64,000 nucleotides of DNA from Psychrobacillus lasiicapitis (GTDB lineage Bacteria > Bacillota > Bacilli > Bacillales_A > Planococcaceae), in NCBI RefSeq assembly GCF_006861795.1, contig NZ_VDGH01000003.1:62001-126000 (forward strand). Direction: 5' to 3'. The position numbers and the translations under genes were made by a program. The notes under the pieces are model-generated. The model saw only the letters and a list, made by a program, of their open reading frames with translations, was not told where the DNA came from and searched no databases. Shown here one piece after another: positions 1,778-62,830 of the stretch (position 1 is the stretch's first letter; the number at the start of each line of letters is the position of its first letter).

Positions 1778-4700
1778 TTAATTTCCCTCCTTTTCAATTT
1801 GTATGAATGGAAATCTTAATTCCACGATCGTTCCTTTATATTCCTCACTAGTTATTTGAATGGATGCATTTTCATAATACTTTAAACGTTTTTTTATATT
1901 TTGTAGTCCTACACTTTGACCTGTATCTTGTTCTACATTCCAAATCTGTTGTAGTTTATATGCAGAAATCCCTGTTCCATTATCGGATATTTGGAAAACG
2001 ATGAAGTCATCTTCCCTTACAACAGTGAGTTTTACGATTCCTTGACCTTCCTTCATTTTTAAACCATGAACTATAGCATTCTCCACGATAGGCTGCAAGA
2101 TTAAAGGAGGAATAAAACAATGCAATGGATCTTGCATTTGCACTTCCCAAACTAGTCGCTCTGGAAATCTAGTCCGTTGAATATTTACATAGGATTGAAT
2201 GAGGGAAAGTTCCTTTTCTAATGGAACTAAACTATGTGTATTTTCAAAGGAAAAGCTTCCTCTCATAAAATTAGCAAAATCTGTAATCATAGTACGTGCC
2301 TTTTCCAAATCTATATAACTTAGTGAAAGAATCGAATTTAATACATTGAAAATAAAATGCGGTTTAATTTGTGCTTGTAAAAAAGCAACTTCCATCTTCA
2401 CCGCATTTTCAGATGATTCCTTCATTAATAATAGATTTCTTATTCTAGTTTTTAACTCTGATGTATCCAATGGTTTGTGTAAGAAATCATTTGCACCAGA
2501 ATGGAACGCTGCAATCATATCTTCTGGTCGAACAGCAGCTGTCAACATTAAAATAGGAAGTTCGGAGGGTAGATAAGATTTTCTCAATTGTTGACATACT
2601 TCATATCCAGAAACCTCTGGCATCATAATATCCAAAATAACTAGATCTATATCAGGATATTTTTTCACCTGCTCCAAAACTGCCTTTCCGCTATCAACTG
2701 CGACAATAAAATAATCCTCTGATATAAGCGTATCCATGAGAACTTTCAGATTCACATGATCATCATCTGCAATGATTATTTTTTTTCGATCCTTATTTCC
2801 GTTAACAGAAGGAATAGGAAGTGAAAAAGATTGCTTTGTTGGTTTGTTTAATTGAGTTGCTTTAGGAAGCGTAACCGAAAAGGTAGTTCCTTTATTTACT
2901 ACAGAATTTACAGTAATTGTGCCACCTTGAATCTGCACAAGCTCTTTCGTCACACTTAAACCTAGACCAGTTCCTCCAGTTGCATTGCTATATTGTCGAA
3001 AAGGCTCAAACACAAATTTTAAATTCTCTGAAGCAATTCCAATACCAGTATCACTAACTGTTATGACTAAATTTTCTTCCTGTTCATAGCATTTAATCTC
3101 TACCTTCCCTCGCATCGTATATTTAACCGCATTATCTATTAAATTATATAAAATCTGACGAAACCTTTCCTCGTCCGCCAATACTAATTGCCCTCTTTGG
3201 ATGTGATTTATAATTTTCACATCTTTGTCTATCATATACGTAAAAGTTTCCACAACGACATGTGTAATAGCAAATAGATCCACAGAGGTTATCCGAACCC
3301 GCATTTCTCCTTCTTTCAGTTTCGAAAAATCTAGTATATCGTTTACAAGGTTAGACAAACGATGAGCAGTCCCTACTATTAATCCCATTTTTTCTTCTTC
3401 CTCTACCGACAAGGAAGATTTTCTATCTTCAAGCATTGATTGAGAGATCGCTATAATTCCATGTAAAGGCGTTCGAAATTCATGAGAGGCTTTCGCAAGA
3501 ACTCCATCTTTCAACTTATCCACACGTAATAGAGCATTGGACAACTCTTCTTTCTTTAAGAAGGAATCCATGAAACGGTGGGATATATAAAGTGAAAGCA
3601 TCGCTAAACAAATAAAAGGAAATAAAGGGGGTAATGAATTCATCGCATAGTTTGCCGAAACATTCAAAGTTCCAACAGTAAAATAAATAAAAATAGTAAA
3701 GCTACTAAAGATTAAATAAGAAGCACCCACAGCCTTTTTGGATACCGCAATAATTTGTAAATAGATGATATACACTAAGCTGATAAAAATATAAAGAGAA
3801 TAATAGATTTGTAGGCTAGAGTTCAACTTTACTGGTAGAAGTGCAGTACCTGTTAACAAAATACCAATTATCCATAGAAACCGTACAATCCTTTGATTCG
3901 AAAATTGCTTTAAAGACGATTGAAAAAAACATAACATAAACAAACCTATCCAAATACTCGAAACTGATTGGATTCTTTCGAAAAAAGCATATGGTGTAGC
4001 AGGGAACAACTCCAAAAATACCTTCTCTCCGTGAGAAACAGCATATAAAACATTGGCAAAACAAAAGAGCGAAAAGAATAGCTGCTCCACGCCGATCCTT
4101 GCATACAAAAATGAACCTAAAAAGTATATAAACATGGTTGAAAAAGCGGCAATGGTTACCCAATCATATGCAAGCGATCTTTCTCGAAGATTGCCTATAC
4201 TATCTTGATCTCCAATAAAAATAGAACCTAATATTCCACCACCAGATGCATAATCAAAATTGGCAACATGTACAATTATGTCCAGCTCTTTCTCATCTGG
4301 AGAAAAATAAGAAACATACGGGATATTATGAGCTGAATAAGTATCATCTTCTGCTGGTATCCCACTGCTACCTATTAGTTTTCCATCCATATAGATAGCA
4401 TTAGACATGCGAATATTAGTTGTTTTTATCCCTAAAACCTCTGGTGAATTATTTAATAAGATTTTAAGTCGATATGTGCCGCTAGTATACCTCGACAGTT
4501 TCTGACCATTTAAGTCATAATCGGTCCATATGGAGGGTACTTCAACATGATATGATTGTTGTCTATCAAATGCCGTAGAATCTAATAGCTTGTTTGGAAC
4601 AAACTCCCATTCTCCGTTCATTTCTATTGGTTCTGCTCCGTCTAACTCATAATTTCGTAAATCCAAAACTCCATCCACTGCTTTTGGTGATATTGGTTTT

Positions 4701-4786
4701 TCTTTTACTAGTATCGAATTTAGGGAAAATGCACTTATAAGTAAAATTCCGATTATAGTGATGATTTTTATGTAGGTTTTTTTCAT
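1778..4786 (-). CDS. Hybrid sensor kinase with two transmitter modules (7TMR-DISM / HisKA / REC / LytS-type)
   Basis: A 1002-residue membrane kinase. An N-terminal membrane segment (about 7-27) is followed by an extracytoplasmic beta-rich domain (about 36-205, with GEWEFVP and VPSIWTDY) of the 7TMR-DISM extracellular kind, then seven membrane spans (about 208-403). A HisKA domain carries H435 in ASHEFRTP, followed by an ATPase with N552, DTGIG and GGTGLGLS. A receiver (667-785) has phospho-acceptor D719 in LVILDIMMPE and K771. The C-terminus is a second, LytS/YehU-type kinase with H810 in QIKPHFIFN and its own ATPase (VENAIVHGLK, SDNGTGI). It forms an operon with the downstream regulator and has its own promoter at 4823-4851. 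The ligand is unknown. Confidence 0.92.
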   Translation of the reverse strand: MKKTYIKIITIIGILLISAFSLNSILVKEKPISPKAVDGVLDLRNYELDGAEPIEMNGEWEFVPNKLLDSTAFDRQQSYHVEVPSIWTDYDLNGQKLSRYTSGTYRLKILLNNSPEVLGIKTTNIRMSNAIYMDGKLIGSSGIPAEDDTYSAHNIPYVSYFSPDEKELDIIVHVANFDYASGGGILGSIFIGDQDSIGNLRERSLAYDWVTIAAFSTMFIYFLGSFLYARIGVEQLFFSLFCFANVLYAVSHGEKVFLELFPATPYAFFERIQSVSSIWIGLFMLCFFQSSLKQFSNQRIVRFLWIIGILLTGTALLPVKLNSSLQIYYSLYIFISLVYIIYLQIIAVSKKAVGASYLIFSSFTIFIYFTVGTLNVSANYAMNSLPPLFPFICLAMLSLYISHRFMDSFLKKEELSNALLRVDKLKDGVLAKASHEFRTPLHGIIAISQSMLEDRKSSLSVEEEEKMGLIVGTAHRLSNLVNDILDFSKLKEGEMRVRITSVDLFAITHVVVETFTYMIDKDVKIINHIQRGQLVLADEERFRQILYNLIDNAVKYTMRGKVEIKCYEQEENLVITVSDTGIGIASENLKFVFEPFRQYSNATGGTGLGLSVTKELVQIQGGTITVNSVVNKGTTFSVTLPKATQLNKPTKQSFSLPIPSVNGNKDRKKIIIADDDHVNLKVLMDTLISEDYFIVAVDSGKAVLEQVKKYPDIDLVILDIMMPEVSGYEVCQQLRKSYLPSELPILMLTAAVRPEDMIAAFHSGANDFLHKPLDTSELKTRIRNLLLMKESSENAVKMEVAFLQAQIKPHFIFNVLNSILSLSYIDLEKARTMITDFANFMRGSFSFENTHSLVPLEKELSLIQSYVNIQRTRFPERLVWEVQMQDPLHCFIPPLILQPIVENAIVHGLKMKEGQGIVKLTVVREDDFIVFQISDNGTGISAYKLQQIWNVEQDTGQSVGLQNIKKRLKYYENASIQITSEEYKGTIVELRFPFIQIEKEGN

Positions 4787-12846: not shown

Positions 12847-14415
12847 TTATTCTTTTACCTTCACACTAGTCCACTCGATCGTATTGTTTATAGGATGAAC
12901 GTCAAAGCTTTCAAAGTTGCGGATAGCAGTGACGTTTTCCTTTACGTACAATGGGATAAAAGGAGACTCTTCCACAAGCATTTCTTGCGCCTCTTCATAC
13001 AACTTTGAGCGATCCTCTTGGTCCATTTCAATAGCTGCTTTGTCTAAAATGCTGTATATTTTCTCATTTTCATAATGTAATCTTTTCGATTTGTCTTTTC
13101 CGAAAAGTAAAAAGTTCAGTACATCTGCATCTGGCCAACCGTAACTCCATAACAGCATTTCATGTACGCCTTTTGGTGTTTGTTCAATAATCGTTGCGGA
13201 TTCCTTCACTGCAATATTTATTTTCACCCCTATCTCCATTAACTGATTTTGTATGACTTGTGCCGCTCTTTGATTGGCTGGATCATCATCCACCCACAAC
13301 TCCACCGAAAACTCCTTACCATCTTTCATCACGACGCCATCTTTATTCGTTTCATTCCATCCAGCTTCCGCTAAAAGCTTTTTCGCTGCATCAATATCTC
13401 TTGTATATTTGTCCCGAGCCATTGTCTCAATTTTTTCGCTATAGCCAAACACTGTTTTTGGTAGTGGGCCGAATACTGCTTGCGCCTCACCATTTAATGT
13501 GTTGTCGATAATTGACTCCCGATCAATCGCAAGTGCAAGTGCTTGTCTCACTTTTACATCTTGGAAAATAGGTTGTTTATTGTTCCATCCCAAATAACTT
13601 AATGTATCACTTTGTACTCTCTTAATCGTTACTTCCGAATCTTTTTCAAGGTCTTCTATATATTGATAAGGAACATTTAGCAAGACATCTACATTTCCTT
13701 TTTTAAATTCTAAAATTCTTGTTTCCTCATCTGGAATAAATCTAAATTTCACACTATCAAAACCAGGTTTTTGGCTTTCCCAATTAAAATCCTTATAAGG
13801 CTCATAAACAAGTGAATCTCCTCTATTAATCTTCACTAGCTTAAGCGGACCAGATCCACTAGGATTTTTCTCAAATCCTTCCCCTTCTCCATTCAATACG
13901 GAAACATCCAAAGGTGCTAAAAATGGAGTCGTTGCATTAATAAAGAACGGTGCAAATTGATCCTTCCATGTGATTTTGAAAGAGTAGTCACTTAAAACTT
14001 CGATGCTATCAATATCCCCTGCATTCGTGCTAAATGGTGAAGAAGAAATTAACCGTTCAAAAGATAACTTTACTGCTTCCGCATTCACCGGTTTTCCCGA
14101 ATGAAATACTGCGTCCTCTTTCAAATTGAAAATCACTTCCTTCCCATCCCCAATCACTTCATAATCTGTAATTAAATTTGGTACAATGTTCCCGTCATTA
14201 TCAAGTTTTAATAATGTATCATATAGCGGTATATTTGCTTCACCAGTAGAAGATGTACGATGGATATCCACAGAGTCGGGTTCTGAAACTAACCCAACCA
14301 CAACTTCCCGATCCTTGCCCTTATTAGCATCCGTTTCCTTTGAACGATTACAGCCCGATACGATTAGCAAAAAGTCAATAAACATCATAAAAACTACAAA
14401 TCGTTTCCTGTTCAT
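12847..14415 (-). CDS. Peptide-binding lipoprotein (DppE/OppA family)
   Basis: A 522-residue solute-binding protein of the SBP_bac_5 family and first gene of the peptide importer operon. The N-terminus MNRKRFVVFMMFIDFLLIVSGCN has a lipobox LIVSGC, so the mature protein is a lipoprotein held at the outer face of the membrane. Family hallmarks include YDTLLKLDNDGNIVPNLITD, NLKEDAVFHSGKPVNAEAVK, VRQALALAIDRE and the C-terminal EESPFIPLYVKENV. It delivers peptides to the permease pair encoded at 12567-10728. The ligand (dipeptide, oligopeptide or muropeptide) cannot be read from the sequence. Confidence 0.93.
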   Translation of the reverse strand: MNRKRFVVFMMFIDFLLIVSGCNRSKETDANKGKDREVVVGLVSEPDSVDIHRTSSTGEANIPLYDTLLKLDNDGNIVPNLITDYEVIGDGKEVIFNLKEDAVFHSGKPVNAEAVKLSFERLISSSPFSTNAGDIDSIEVLSDYSFKITWKDQFAPFFINATTPFLAPLDVSVLNGEGEGFEKNPSGSGPLKLVKINRGDSLVYEPYKDFNWESQKPGFDSVKFRFIPDEETRILEFKKGNVDVLLNVPYQYIEDLEKDSEVTIKRVQSDTLSYLGWNNKQPIFQDVKVRQALALAIDRESIIDNTLNGEAQAVFGPLPKTVFGYSEKIETMARDKYTRDIDAAKKLLAEAGWNETNKDGVVMKDGKEFSVELWVDDDPANQRAAQVIQNQLMEIGVKINIAVKESATIIEQTPKGVHEMLLWSYGWPDADVLNFLLFGKDKSKRLHYENEKIYSILDKAAIEMDQEDRSKLYEEAQEMLVEESPFIPLYVKENVTAIRNFESFDVHPINNTIEWTSVKVKE

Positions 14416-32905: not shown

Positions 32906-33373
32906 TTATACCACTTTACTTGTATCTTTTAATGCTTCGGTACGAACAAGCTCCACAAAGTCATTTACTACTTTTTCATTTTGTTTTTGACTGCCCATTT
33001 TTGATAAAATACGTCCAATGAAATTGATCCCTTCATTTTGACCGGTGTATATAAATCTAGTTGTTTGTTCGTCTATTTTTATTAAGGTAAAGCCTGCTTG
33101 GATTTTAAAGAGTTTTGCTAATGTGAACTCGATTTTATTGTGTTTTTTGTGGGCTGTGTTTTCATATTCGATGTCTGTTACGATGTACGTTTCCGTTCTT
33201 TTTCCTTCTCTGTAGGTTTGCTGATAGGTGGAACCCACGACGCCTTCTTTTATTTCTAAAGGTTTGTGTTCTACTATGTTTGGCATGATTCTTTGGATGT
33301 TGTCGAGGTCAAATAGGTTCCAAATTGTTTCGATTGGTGCTTGAATCGTGGTTTCTTTGTGCCAAGTTAGCAT
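32906..33373 (-). CDS. SRPBCC (START/Bet v1-like) domain protein
   Basis: 155 residues from the ATG at 33373, which has AAGGAG 7 nt upstream; an in-frame upstream ATG lacks a site. The pattern KETTIQAPIETIWNLFDLDNIQRIMPN, then GVVGSTYQQTYREGKRTETYIVTD and TLIKIDEQTTRFIYTGQNEG, is typical of the polyketide cyclase/dehydrase or AHSA1-like SRPBCC fold. That fold makes a hydrophobic ligand pocket. There is no signal peptide. The ligand and role are unknown; it is a single-gene unit. Confidence 0.82.
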   Translation of the reverse strand: MLTWHKETTIQAPIETIWNLFDLDNIQRIMPNIVEHKPLEIKEGVVGSTYQQTYREGKRTETYIVTDIEYENTAHKKHNKIEFTLAKLFKIQAGFTLIKIDEQTTRFIYTGQNEGINFIGRILSKMGSQKQNEKVVNDFVELVRTEALKDTSKVV

Positions 33374-33558
33374 GTGTGCGCTCCTTTTTAGTATTCCGAA
33401 TAGTTTGCGAATTTCACTATAGTGTACCATATTATTGGTTGATTACAATGCTTGTTTTTTTAGTGGATCGAGGTGCTGAATGTAGAGTATCGAGGATTGT
33501 TTCGTTAGTAAGCACAAACATGAGTAAATCTTGGCTAAAAGTTTTTTACTTAGAAAAA

Positions 33559-33671
33559 TGGTTGCTTTCGACTTTGAAATGGTTGCTTATAGAATCGATT
33601 TGGTTGCTCTCCCGATAGTTTTAGTTGCTCTCCATGGTCGGTTGGTTGCCCTTAACCATTTTATGGATTGT
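33559..33671. repeat. 21-bp-period motif array, GCAACCA family (array B)
   Basis: On the plus strand TGGTTGCT (or a close variant) starts at 33559, 33580, 33601, 33622, 33643 and 33664, exactly 21 bp apart each time. The 13-14 bp between are not conserved. On the minus strand the array is preceded by AAAATGGTTAAGG, a leader shared with the arrays at 60018 and 62768. Confidence 0.9.
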
Positions 33672-33734: not shown

Positions 33735-33770
33735 AAAAAAGACCGGCCTATGGAATAGGACGATCCGGTT
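33735..33770 (-). terminator. Terminator of the argCJBD operon
   Basis: On the minus strand ACCGG...CCTAT/ATAGG..CCGGT is followed by CTTTTTTC. Confidence 0.75.
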
Positions 33771-33814: not shown

Positions 33815-34939
33815 CTACATTAATATAGAAGAAAGTATGTTTACAGCTTGGTCGATTTCTTCTTTCTTTACAGTTAGCGGTGGCAGAAGTCGGATGACGT
33901 TTGGACCTGCTGATACTAGTAATAGGCCATTCTGTTCTGCTTTTTCGATGGTTGGCGCTACTTCTTCTTCGCATTTGATTCCTAGTAGTAAGCCGGAGCC
34001 GACGATTTGATGGTTCGGTAGTGCTGTTTTTAGTTTATCCAAAAAGTAGGCAGATTTTTCATTGACTGCATTTAAAAATTTAGTCGTGAACACATTGTCT
34101 AGTACGGTTTGCGCGACAGCTACTGCTAGTGGGTTTCCACCGAATGTTGTGCCGTGTGTGCCGGGACTGAATGTGTCATAGAGTGCACTTGTGCCAAGCA
34201 TAGCTCCGATTGGAAAGCCGCCGCCGAGACCTTTCGCGAGTGTCATGATGTCCGGTTTTAGGACGGTTTGCTCGTATGCGTAGCGAGTTCCGGTGCGTGC
34301 GATACCTGTTTGCACTTCATCGATGATCAGTAGAATATCTTTTGATTCGCAAATGTCCGCAACTGCTTGTGCGAATTCAGGTGAAATTTTGTTTATACCA
34401 CCTTCACCTTGGATGACTTCTAGCATGATTGCCGCTACATCACTGTCTATTGCAGCGTCTAGTGCCTGAATATCATTGAAAGGGATTGTGCGAAACGTTT
34501 CTAGTAACGGTCCGAAGCCTTGGCGTATTTTGTCTTGACCGGTTGCGGACATAGCGCCAAATGTTCGGCCATGGAATGATTTTTCGAATGTGATGATAAT
34601 GTTTTTGCCTGTATGTTTACGCGCCATTTTGATGGCAGCTTCGTTTGCTTCTGCTCCACTGTTGCAGAAAAATGCATGTGAAAGATGCGTTTCTTTTACA
34701 AGCGTTGCCGCTAGTTTTTCTTGTTCTGGACTTTCGAATAGATTTGAAGTGTGCCACAGTTTTTCACTTTGTTGTTGAATGGCTTGCACGACCGCAGGAT
34801 TGGCATGGCCAAGGCTTAGTACTGCGATGCCGCTTGTGAAATCGAGATATTCTTTTCCTGTGTCATCTGTAACGATTGTGCCTTTGCCTTGCACGAGATG
34901 AACGGGTCGACGGGCGTAGTTTTGGAATAATGCACTCAT
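33815..34939 (-). CDS. argD: Acetylornithine aminotransferase
   Basis: A 374-residue PLP enzyme (class III aminotransferase) that makes N-acetylornithine in arginine synthesis. Visible motifs are FTSGIAVLSLGHANP, NSGAEANEAAIKMARKHTG, IIDEVQTGIARTGT and the PLP lysine in MTLAKGLGGGFPIGAML. It overlaps argB by 4 nt (ATGA) and ends the argCJBD operon. It is slightly shorter than many ArgD proteins (about 385-405) but complete. Confidence 0.95.
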   Translation of the reverse strand: MSALFQNYARRPVHLVQGKGTIVTDDTGKEYLDFTSGIAVLSLGHANPAVVQAIQQQSEKLWHTSNLFESPEQEKLAATLVKETHLSHAFFCNSGAEANEAAIKMARKHTGKNIIITFEKSFHGRTFGAMSATGQDKIRQGFGPLLETFRTIPFNDIQALDAAIDSDVAAIMLEVIQGEGGINKISPEFAQAVADICESKDILLIIDEVQTGIARTGTRYAYEQTVLKPDIMTLAKGLGGGFPIGAMLGTSALYDTFSPGTHGTTFGGNPLAVAVAQTVLDNVFTTKFLNAVNEKSAYFLDKLKTALPNHQIVGSGLLLGIKCEEEVAPTIEKAEQNGLLLVSAGPNVIRLLPPLTVKKEEIDQAVNILSSILM

Positions 34940-43491: not shown

Positions 43492-43946
43492 TATATATCC
43501 ACCTCTTGCGTTTATATTATTACTTTAGTATAGCGAAGTTGTTTTGAGTTGTTAAGGGGAGATTTTGTTGTGAGATTGAGAGGTATCGCTTAAGGGAGAT
43601 TGATTGTTTGTCTAGGAAGACTTGGAGATTTTCCAAGAATATTGGTTTATTGTCCAGAAATAGACGGAGATTGTCCAACTATTTGGGCTGATTGTCCAGG
43701 TTTTGCATAGGATTGTCCAACTTCGGGGAGAGTTTGTCCAAGTTCTAAATGATTGTCCAACTATTTGAGAAGATTGTCCAAGTCTTGCATAGGATTGTCC
43801 ACCTTTGGGAAGAGATTGTCCAAGTTCTAAATGATTGTCCACCTTTCGGGCTTTATTGTCCAAGATTATTGAGTTATTGTCCAGAAAAAGCAAATGATTG
43901 TCCAAAGTGATGTCACTGACACCAAGTACAAGTATCAATCCAAAAG
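43492..43946. other. Gap holding the long 21-bp-period array
   Basis: No gene is supported. Most of the gap is the array at 43608-43904. Confidence 0.8.
43608..43904. repeat. 21-bp-period TTGTCCA array, 15 units (array A)
   Basis: TTGTCCA starts at 43650, 43671, 43692, 43713, 43734, 43753, 43774, 43795, 43816, 43835, 43856, 43877 and 43898. Degenerate copies stand at 43608 (TTGTCTA) and 43629 (TTTTCCA). The spacing is 21 bp except for two steps of 19. The 12-14 bp between motifs are poorly conserved. The 19-bp steps break any reading frame, so this is a DNA- or RNA-level array, not a peptide repeat. Confidence 0.95.
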
Positions 43947-58576: not shown

Positions 58577-58790
58577 GTCTAGTTGCAGCGCCTTGCTCCT
58601 GCGCACAGCTCGTCGCAGAAGAACGTTGCCCCTCGGGGTCAAATGTGAAAAAGCTGTGGGCTGAAGAGTTGCCTCCTTGGCCCGCACGATGCGGGTTATA
58701 TCTGCTTTGCCACAGGATGTGGCGCACTTTGCAGACCTACCCCATCCTCATTTGCCTGTCGTGGCAGAGATAGGCGCTTCCACTTTTCTA
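58577..58790. repeat. Long dispersed GC-rich intergenic repeat
   Basis: About 214 bp beginning TCTAGTTGCAGCGCCTTGC and ending GAGATAGGCGCTTCCACTTT, with several internal inverted pairs. It directly abuts the mbl stop. I recognise the 'CAGCGCC...AGGCGCTTCC' frame from repeats scattered through Bacillaceae/Planococcaceae genomes. It is non-coding. Confidence 0.78.
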
Positions 58791-59784: not shown

Positions 59785-60128
59785 TAACAGTGTTTCTCCT
59801 TCCCTGTCAGAACCTTTTATATGTAAATTTCCATACGTCTCTAACTTATTATTTTATCATAGTTTTGTCAGAATTACACTTTTTTTAGAAACGTATTAGG
59901 TAGAATTTGCGAGGTATGACTGGTGGAAATAAATTTATGGAGGAGGAAGGATTGGCGGTGATTGGATTTGGGTGAGAGCAACTTTCACGCTAACGCTAGA
60001 GAACCGATTTGACTGGGGAAAGTGGCTAAGGCAACCAATTAGACTGGATGAACAACCAAATCTTCGGGCAGGGCAACCAATTCGTTCCGAAAGCAACCAA
60101 TCTAGGGTTCTCTCTAGTTGATCCATAA
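59785..60128. other. Gap between mbl and spoIIID
   Basis: No gene. It contains the mbl promoter region (CTGACA and TATGAT-like boxes at 59860-59880 on the minus strand, not well spaced) and a GCAACCA array. Confidence 0.6.
60018..60100. repeat. 21-bp-period motif array, GCAACCA family (array C)
   Basis: After the leader GAAAGTGGCTAAGG the motif GCAACCAA starts at 60031, 60052, 60073 and 60093 (steps 21, 21 and 20). Degenerate copies are seen before the leader at 59978 and 60000. Confidence 0.82.
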
Positions 60129-62767: not shown

Positions 62768-62830
62768 GAAAATGGCTAAGGGAAACCAAACCCATAGTAA
62801 GAGCAACCAGTCTTCGCCTGAAAGCAACCA
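62768..62830. repeat. 21-bp-period motif array, GCAACCA family (array D)
   Basis: After the leader GAAAATGGCTAAGG the motif starts at 62782 (GAAACCA), 62803 and 62824 (GCAACCA), exactly 21 bp apart. A further GAAACCA stands alone at 62712. Confidence 0.78.

Follow-up and report, generated by a model that had tools for sequence, protein, structure and literature searches.

Behind argD of Psychrobacillus lasiicapitis, a short word is repeated in strict 21-bp register, raising the question of what kind of element the array represents and whether its sequence, its period, or its position is the property being kept. Explanations of bacterial intergenic repeats usually invoke a single sequence family, RNA structure, or mobility. 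Within Psychrobacillus, the word varies but period and location persist, some genomes containing more than 100 adjacent copies, and the arrays constitute a natural experiment on the selection of spacing rather than sequence. They may perhaps inform the co-evolution of DNA-binding proteins with their sites, as well as the ending of transcription units in Bacillota. Throughout, the window denotes the whole 64,000-nucleotide stretch analysed, genomes carry our own G numbers (G000 being the genome of the window, 4.49 Mb in 28 contigs), and loci carry L numbers.

Architecture of the array downstream of argD

The array is located between the argD terminator and the next gene. argD, encoding acetylornithine transaminase, occupies 33815-34939 on the minus strand (NCBIfam NF002797, E 3e-167), and the next gene, on the same strand at 32906-33430 (174 aa), shows a weak Pfam Polyketide_cyc2 match below the gathering score. 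Along the minus strand, argD is followed by an intrinsic terminator-like hairpin with a T-run (33735-33769, minus strand, read by eye), the leader ATCCATAAAATGGTTAAGG (33650-33668, minus strand), and five GCAACCA units, one of them GCAACTA, in exact 21-bp steps (33559-33649, minus strand). Transcription from argD would reach the hairpin before the array, a similar hairpin stands before the array in other species, and orthologous arrays are present in G016 and G009. On the plus strand, the cores start at 33559, 33580, and 33601 (each reading TGGTTGCT), at 33622 (TAGTTGCT), and at 33643 (TGGTTGCC). At 33664, the next position in phase, the sequence (TGGATTGT) is degenerate and forms part of the leader, which can be regarded as a degenerate unit 0, so that the array comprises five good copies plus one weak copy. 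The phased array described in the initial annotation is confirmed, and its count of six copies 21 bp apart held in part, the phasing being exact and the sixth copy degenerate.

The window contains four arrays, adjoining argD, murA, spoIIID/spoIIQ, and a DUF997 gene. Two others share the GCAACCA core on the plus strand: four units at 60031-60099 (steps of 21, 21, and 20 bp), preceded by a weaker leader, GTGGCTAAG, at 60022-60030 on the plus strand, followed by a terminator-like hairpin, and having an ortholog in G016; and three units of 21 bp at 62782-62830, the first reading GAAACCA, preceded by the leader AAAATGGCTAAGG. The remaining array, with core TGGACAAT on the minus strand (TTGTCCA on the plus strand), spans 43627-43904 with approximately 13-14 units at 21 bp and intervening 19-bp steps; its family is also present in G016, G017, and G011. 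Outside the three GCAACCA arrays, GCAACCA occurs four times in the window, compared with 6.8 expected. An Rfam 15 scan, restricted to the window, returned no match above gathering score at the arrays, and its sole match was a Bacillaceae-1 RNA at 58681-58747 on the minus strand (54.3 bits).

Leader and anatomy of the repeat unit

A search of the window with the 13-mer leader found it exactly at 33650-33662 (minus strand) and with one mismatch at 62769-62781 (plus strand), against an average of 0.2 in shuffled sequence, where two occurrences were reached in 0 of 100 shuffles. The proposal that the leader also precedes two other window arrays held for those with the GCAACCA core (62782, and more weakly 60031); ahead of the TTGTCCA array, the search found no leader. 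Aligning the regions before the first unit, a check suggested from the sequence alone, recovered the leader before unit 1 or 2 in 38 of 44 own-genome GCAACCA arrays, compared with 5 of 44 before later units, allowing at most two mismatches in a 10-base pattern and considering arrays of at least three units in the fetched own-genome stretches. The corresponding values were 30/35 versus 2/35 in G016 and 16/18 versus 0/18 in G009, and the test failed in G013 (5/20 arrays versus 3/20 in the control). The leader belongs to the GCAACCA family.

Across 85 own-genome units of 21 bp, information content is 1.5-1.9 bits at the seven core positions, 0.4-0.75 at positions 7-9, only 0.06-0.14 at positions 10-16, and 0.3-1.05 at positions 17-20 (often GAAA or GAGA); because the search took the core as its seed, the core values are inflated. 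The unit consists of a constrained core, sharp over 7 bp and loosely constrained over approximately 14 bp, together with a nearly free 7-bp centre. A subset of the GCAACCA arrays represents recognisable copies of one element, made up of the leader, a run of about five units with the third frequently measuring 20 bp, and a trailer with CAAGTTTACTTGGAGTGAGAC. Across the family, the number of units behind the leader varies from 2 to 6, with the trailer confined to the subset. In G011, G008, and G014, arrays of other families are built of super-units, and on the TG strand a hairpin with a T-run stands immediately ahead of them, as judged by eye.

Spacing within and between genomes

The pattern GCAACCA-N13..15-GCAACCA gave 58 matches in the own genome, 29 per strand, with none for the reversed-pattern control; spacing was 21 bp in 50, 20 bp in 8, and 22 bp in 0. 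The genome-wide search suggested initially thus returned 58 adjacent pairs at 20-21 bp, and the result that would have refuted the proposal, an absence of further loci from the genome and its relatives, was not obtained, many loci being found in both. For TGGACAAT-N11..14-TGGACAAT, 35 own-genome matches were recorded (control 0), 30 at 21 bp and 5 at 19 bp, with no pair at 20 or 22 bp even though the pattern allowed them.

In arrays of at least five units, steps of 21 bp predominate (456), followed by 19 (54), 20 (25), and 22 bp (9). The 21-bp period of the initial annotation held only in part, 19-bp steps occurring in the TTGTCCA family and several others. As a separate observation, long arrays with differing words (L343 and L344 in G012, L241 in G004, and 43627-43904 in the window) show 19-bp steps at intervals of 4-5 units. 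Intervals of 4-5 units account for 19 of 31 between successive 19-bp steps, compared with about 6 expected on shuffled order, and the recurrence arises in part through duplication of super-units.

Distances between identical 7-mers in the noncoding DNA around argD of 19 genomes peak at 21 bp (494) and 42 bp (477), followed by 61 (231), 63 (207), and 40 bp (201), with further counts of 68 at 19, 56 at 38, 41 at 41, and 39 at 20. Lower values include 35 each at 52 and 62 and 23 at 22, and the remainder of the 8-64 bp range gives 0-18, apart from a small unexplained excess at distances 10 and 11 (21 and 38). Chaining units at steps of 19-22 bp, with a minimum of four, yielded 39 arrays with 269 units in 13 of the 19 genomes, covering 5,084 of 66,237 noncoding bases. 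No chains formed in the same noncoding DNA at steps of 8-11, 14-17, 24-27, or 29-32 bp, nor in three shuffles. DNA curvature or wrapping with a 10.5-bp rhythm was considered and rejected, the autocorrelation of CA/TG, YR, WW, AA/TT, and SS being 0.00-0.05 at lags 10-11 versus 0.36-0.51 at lag 21.

Core words across the genus

Several families with different cores and the same 19-21 bp period occur within this one genus. Adjacent GCAACCA pairs number 256 in G013, 194 in G009, 58 in the own genome, 52 in G016, 19 in G010, 9 in G011, and 6 in G003, with none in the other 12 genus members. Pairs of TTTGTCG are most frequent in G011 (93) and G015 (18), with 8 each in the own genome and G016, 5 in G003, 4 each in G010 and G009, a single pair in two genomes, and none in ten. 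CTCTCGKA pairs are found in G004 (126), G006 (73), G007 (24), G005 (22), G017 (15), and G014 (7), and are absent from thirteen genomes; TTACTTG pairs in G008 (245), G004 (102), G006 (43), and G007 (40), with 0-3 elsewhere; GGAACTC pairs in G013 (102), G002 (25), and G006 (8), with none elsewhere; and TGGACAA pairs in G017 (56), G016 (41), the own genome (40), and G011 (8), with 0-2 elsewhere. In the genus, reversed-pattern controls matched 0-4 times on each strand of a genome. G012 and G018, with at most one match in the six word searches, carry further words, namely TTTACGAC, CGGTGATA, and GCACCTAA, and TGCAACAC, respectively.

Beyond the genus, GCAACCA pairs were limited to one match each in 12 of 132 genomes, with the reversed control matching in 5 of 132. 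Arrays of at least four units occurred in only 3 of 32 non-Psychrobacillus stretches (20 genomes), indicating a much lower density outside Psychrobacillus: one array in G027, two in a single stretch of G029, and one with irregular steps in G030. The G029 stretch (L266, 53% G+C) carries TTTATCCGC at 20 bp (4656-4784) and TTATCTCGG at 21 bp (14209-14301), both noncoding, the latter directly after a terminator-like hairpin. A motif pattern scan of named genomes matched at least 117 stretches from many unrelated phyla, which we take, without having tested it, to be mostly repeat-coding genes.

The same diversity is seen at a single position, where different cores occupy one orthologous slot. The slot 3' of the argD terminator holds an array in 13 of 19 species (11 identified by script, with G008 and G014, which the script missed, added) with about eight core words. 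Read in the argD direction, these are GCAACCA in G000, G016, and G009, CGACAAA in G003 and G011, TACGAGAG in G004 and G006, GAGAGTAA in G005, CGCAAGTAA in G007 and G008, CGCCAGTAA in G014, TCCGAGAG in G017, and AGTTCCAC in G002. Some of the eight words are only one or two bases apart, as gradual drift would give, and others are unlike. No array was found in the slot in G001, G010, G012, G013, G015, and G018 (6/19 species); in G010, G012, and G018, the slot contains a palindrome-like repeat similar to ACAGGTGCC(T/A)GGCACCTGTAA. Arrays of equal period and different words, both across the noncoding DNA of the genus and at the argD slot, support the initial reading of one element class with variable core words, with common descent of the families remaining unproven.

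Divergence between G000 and G016

Alignment of 18 locus pairs from G000 and G016 gave a divergence of 15.2% in noncoding columns (1838/12076) and 6.6% in columns under ORFs. The argD arrays differ by exactly one 21-bp unit and a few substitutions. In five collinear arrays (L009, L011, L278, L285, and argD), the core carried 1 substitution in 112 positions versus 17 in 144 for the spacer (Fisher p 4e-4); these arrays were chosen after viewing the 18 pairs, and the sites are not independent. Across all aligned units, the values were 37/273 versus 102/351 when G000 supplied the units and 47/287 versus 108/369 when G016 did, and removing L275 and L292, whose arrays did not align, gave 16/238 versus 80/306 for the G000 units. 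Most other slots are too disordered for rates to be compared cleanly; several retain an array of the same family beside the same terminator, but differ in spacers, unit number, or, at one slot, orientation. At the latter (L275/L311), flanks of 95-97% identity enclose approximately 600 bp in G000 and approximately 250 bp in G016, with the GCAACCA arrays running in opposite directions. The TTGTCCA array also differs in its super-units between the two genomes. Core conservation exceeds that of the spacer, and whole units and super-units are gained and lost; taken together, these rates and the changes in units and orientation indicate that cores are held while the rest turns over rapidly.

The interior of the L275 slot is a patchwork in its own right. 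In the own genome (contig C12, 1075-1720), two GCAACCA arrays surround a block of TTGCGC words at approximately 21 bp, accompanied by a TTGTCGTGTTC word, and between the same flanks G016 has a single GCAACCA element in the opposite orientation.

Genomic location and strand

Classified by gene context, 60 array clusters comprise 1 divergent, 17 convergent, and 42 tandem cases, compared with 42 divergent, 28 convergent, and 214 tandem among 284 background intergenic spacers. Arrays are depleted between divergent genes and sit 3' of transcription units, frequently immediately beyond an intrinsic terminator. The background consists of spacers of at least 80 bp in 30 of the sequences used, genes being delimited by simple ORF calling, and the clusters include some that are orthologous to one another; it is possible that promoter avoidance by itself produces the location bias.

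Of 108 arrays, 37 have a terminator-like site no more than 130 bp away on their TG-rich side and 24 have one on their CA side (2 have both and 49 neither), compared with 20 of 152 random noncoding positions. On average, T+G makes up 66% of one strand of an array. No sense of transcription common to all arrays was found, the 42 tandem clusters splitting 19 versus 23, though the TG side has more terminators.

Proposed mechanism and rival explanations

The two-turn period, the non-palindromic head-to-tail cores, the sharp cores with free centres, and the lack of either a consistent RNA structure or a 10.5-bp dinucleotide signal favour double-stranded DNA protein sites, and the position past terminators suggests, by inference, a boundary or roadblock role. 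The interpretation we put forward, with our confidence tilting slightly against rather than for it, is that the arrays are dispersed, fast-turnover sites at transcription-unit ends to which an unidentified DNA-binding factor binds; phasing, core conservation, and location rest on observation, and the factor, its binding, and its role are all inferred. The cores would serve as double-stranded DNA sites for a sequence-specific protein, successive molecules lying head-to-tail along a single face at intervals of two helical turns, comparable to replication proteins on plasmid iterons. At gene ends, the protein may create a boundary, halting read-through or completing termination as a roadblock. 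Word and protein would change in concert, making species differ, and arrays would spread through whole-element copying and change through unit duplication. The empty argD slot in six of 19 species and the 49 of 108 arrays without a nearby terminator count against this reading. Simple helical phasing is insufficient, since 19 bp is further out of helical phase than 20 bp, yet is used in the TGGACAAT family (5/35 pairs), and the coexistence of several core words in one genome would require either several proteins or one loose protein. A bolder version, which we regard as no more than a possibility, holds that the 21-bp period and the gene-3'-end slot are conserved genus-wide, the recognition word being exchangeable, with the factor or factor family and the arrays switching words together rapidly; if so, close relatives would use different words to mark where the same transcription units end.

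The chief rival, which is possible and has not been excluded, regards the arrays as selfish dispersed repeats of MITE-, BOX-, or REP-like character without a host role, in which the cores serve the copying machinery and the location reflects tolerated insertion. MITEs are defined by terminal inverted repeats and target-site duplications. The copied GCAACCA subset, with its element of about five units, leader, trailer, and recognisable unit-specific spacers, speaks for this rival, as does the reversed array between the near-identical flanks of L275/L311. Against it, for six of 44 GCAACCA loci (L009, L024, L028, L285, L287, and L289), BLAST at E 1e-8 returned no match among the other own-genome array loci, so not all arrays are recognisable element copies, and the argD slot is filled by different words in its 13 species. 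It is unlikely that the arrays act as RNA, with read-through transcripts offering repeated sites to an RNA-binding protein, a small RNA, or Rho. The strand asymmetry in T+G and the placement of some arrays directly after terminators are consistent with such a role; however, folding six arrays on both strands (12 folds) gave z-scores from -2.2 to +2.4 without a consistent stable structure, the window arrays (n = 3) lying between -0.2 and +0.6 and one TACGAGAG array at -2.2 and -1.8, and structured RNA was rejected on these folds and the absence of Rfam matches at the window arrays. Moreover, both strands serve as sense in tandem contexts, and a 21-nt lock would be unexpected on flexible RNA.

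Slippage-generated tandem repeats decaying neutrally would account for the exact 21-bp difference at argD and the differing TTGTCCA super-units, but are very unlikely: decay would strike the whole unit, yet cores persist among near-random spacers and change more slowly than both the spacers and other noncoding DNA, and neutral decay offers no reason for one period across different words. A translated heptapeptide repeat, suggested by the divisibility of 21 by three (seven codons), is all but ruled out because steps of 19, 20, and 22 bp inside arrays break the frame; the ORF over the TTGTCCA array (43612-43938) also has no Pfam match at E 0.01.

Relation to known repeat systems

No description of such phased, variable-word arrays was found in the open-licence literature searched. 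Several known systems share individual features with them. Enterobacterial REP/BIME sequences are short palindromic hairpin repeats at gene 3' ends. The arrays resemble them in being short repeats at gene 3' ends with many copies, often several per spacer, but their cores read as non-palindromic direct repeats with no consistent stable fold. Plasmid iterons sit at a replication origin beside the rep gene. They likewise are direct, non-palindromic sites about two helical turns apart and bound head-to-tail, whereas the arrays are dispersed after ordinary genes at dozens of loci on many contigs. CRISPR arrays, located near cas genes, alternate repeats of about 21-48 bp with unique spacers of about 26-72 bp. 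The Psychrobacillus arrays, with a 7-8 bp core and a spacer of about 13 bp, differ from these, as judged on repeat and spacer size only.

The closest described kind is the STAR element of Staphylococcus, and STAR and BOX are the nearest known systems, both differing in tested features. STAR elements are intergenic interspersed direct repeats of unknown function with a conserved 14-bp core and variable spacers, species-specific locations, and copy number varying at a locus; the consensus T(G/A/T)TGTTG(G/T)GGCCC(C/A) is GC-rich, and cores lie at least 40 bp apart (PMC3532100). The Psychrobacillus arrays are also interspersed intergenic direct repeats with copy-number variation, but their cores, including GCAACCA, TGGACAAT, CGACAAA, TACGAGAG, GCAAGTAA, and others, do not read as the STAR consensus (by core reading, without a consensus search), their steps of 21, 19, 20, and 22 bp leave approximately 11-15 bp between 7- or 8-bp cores, and many alternative words replace the single STAR consensus, even within one orthologous slot. 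The BOX elements of Streptococcus pneumoniae, dispersed between genes, consist of a left module, variable internal modules, and a right module, each about 45-59 bp and structured, with stable RNA secondary structure. Their modular layout is matched by the GCAACCA family only, through its leader, 2-6 units, and a trailer in a subset; in contrast, the units here are 21 bp long, cores differ from one species to another, and folding shows no consistent RNA structure, the arrays having been folded without full leader-to-trailer elements.

Separately, a larger dispersed repeat, with blocks of up to approximately 480 bp and copies approximately 70-83% identical to one another, adjoins or contains several arrays at L002, L005, L012, L030, L276, L283, and L293.
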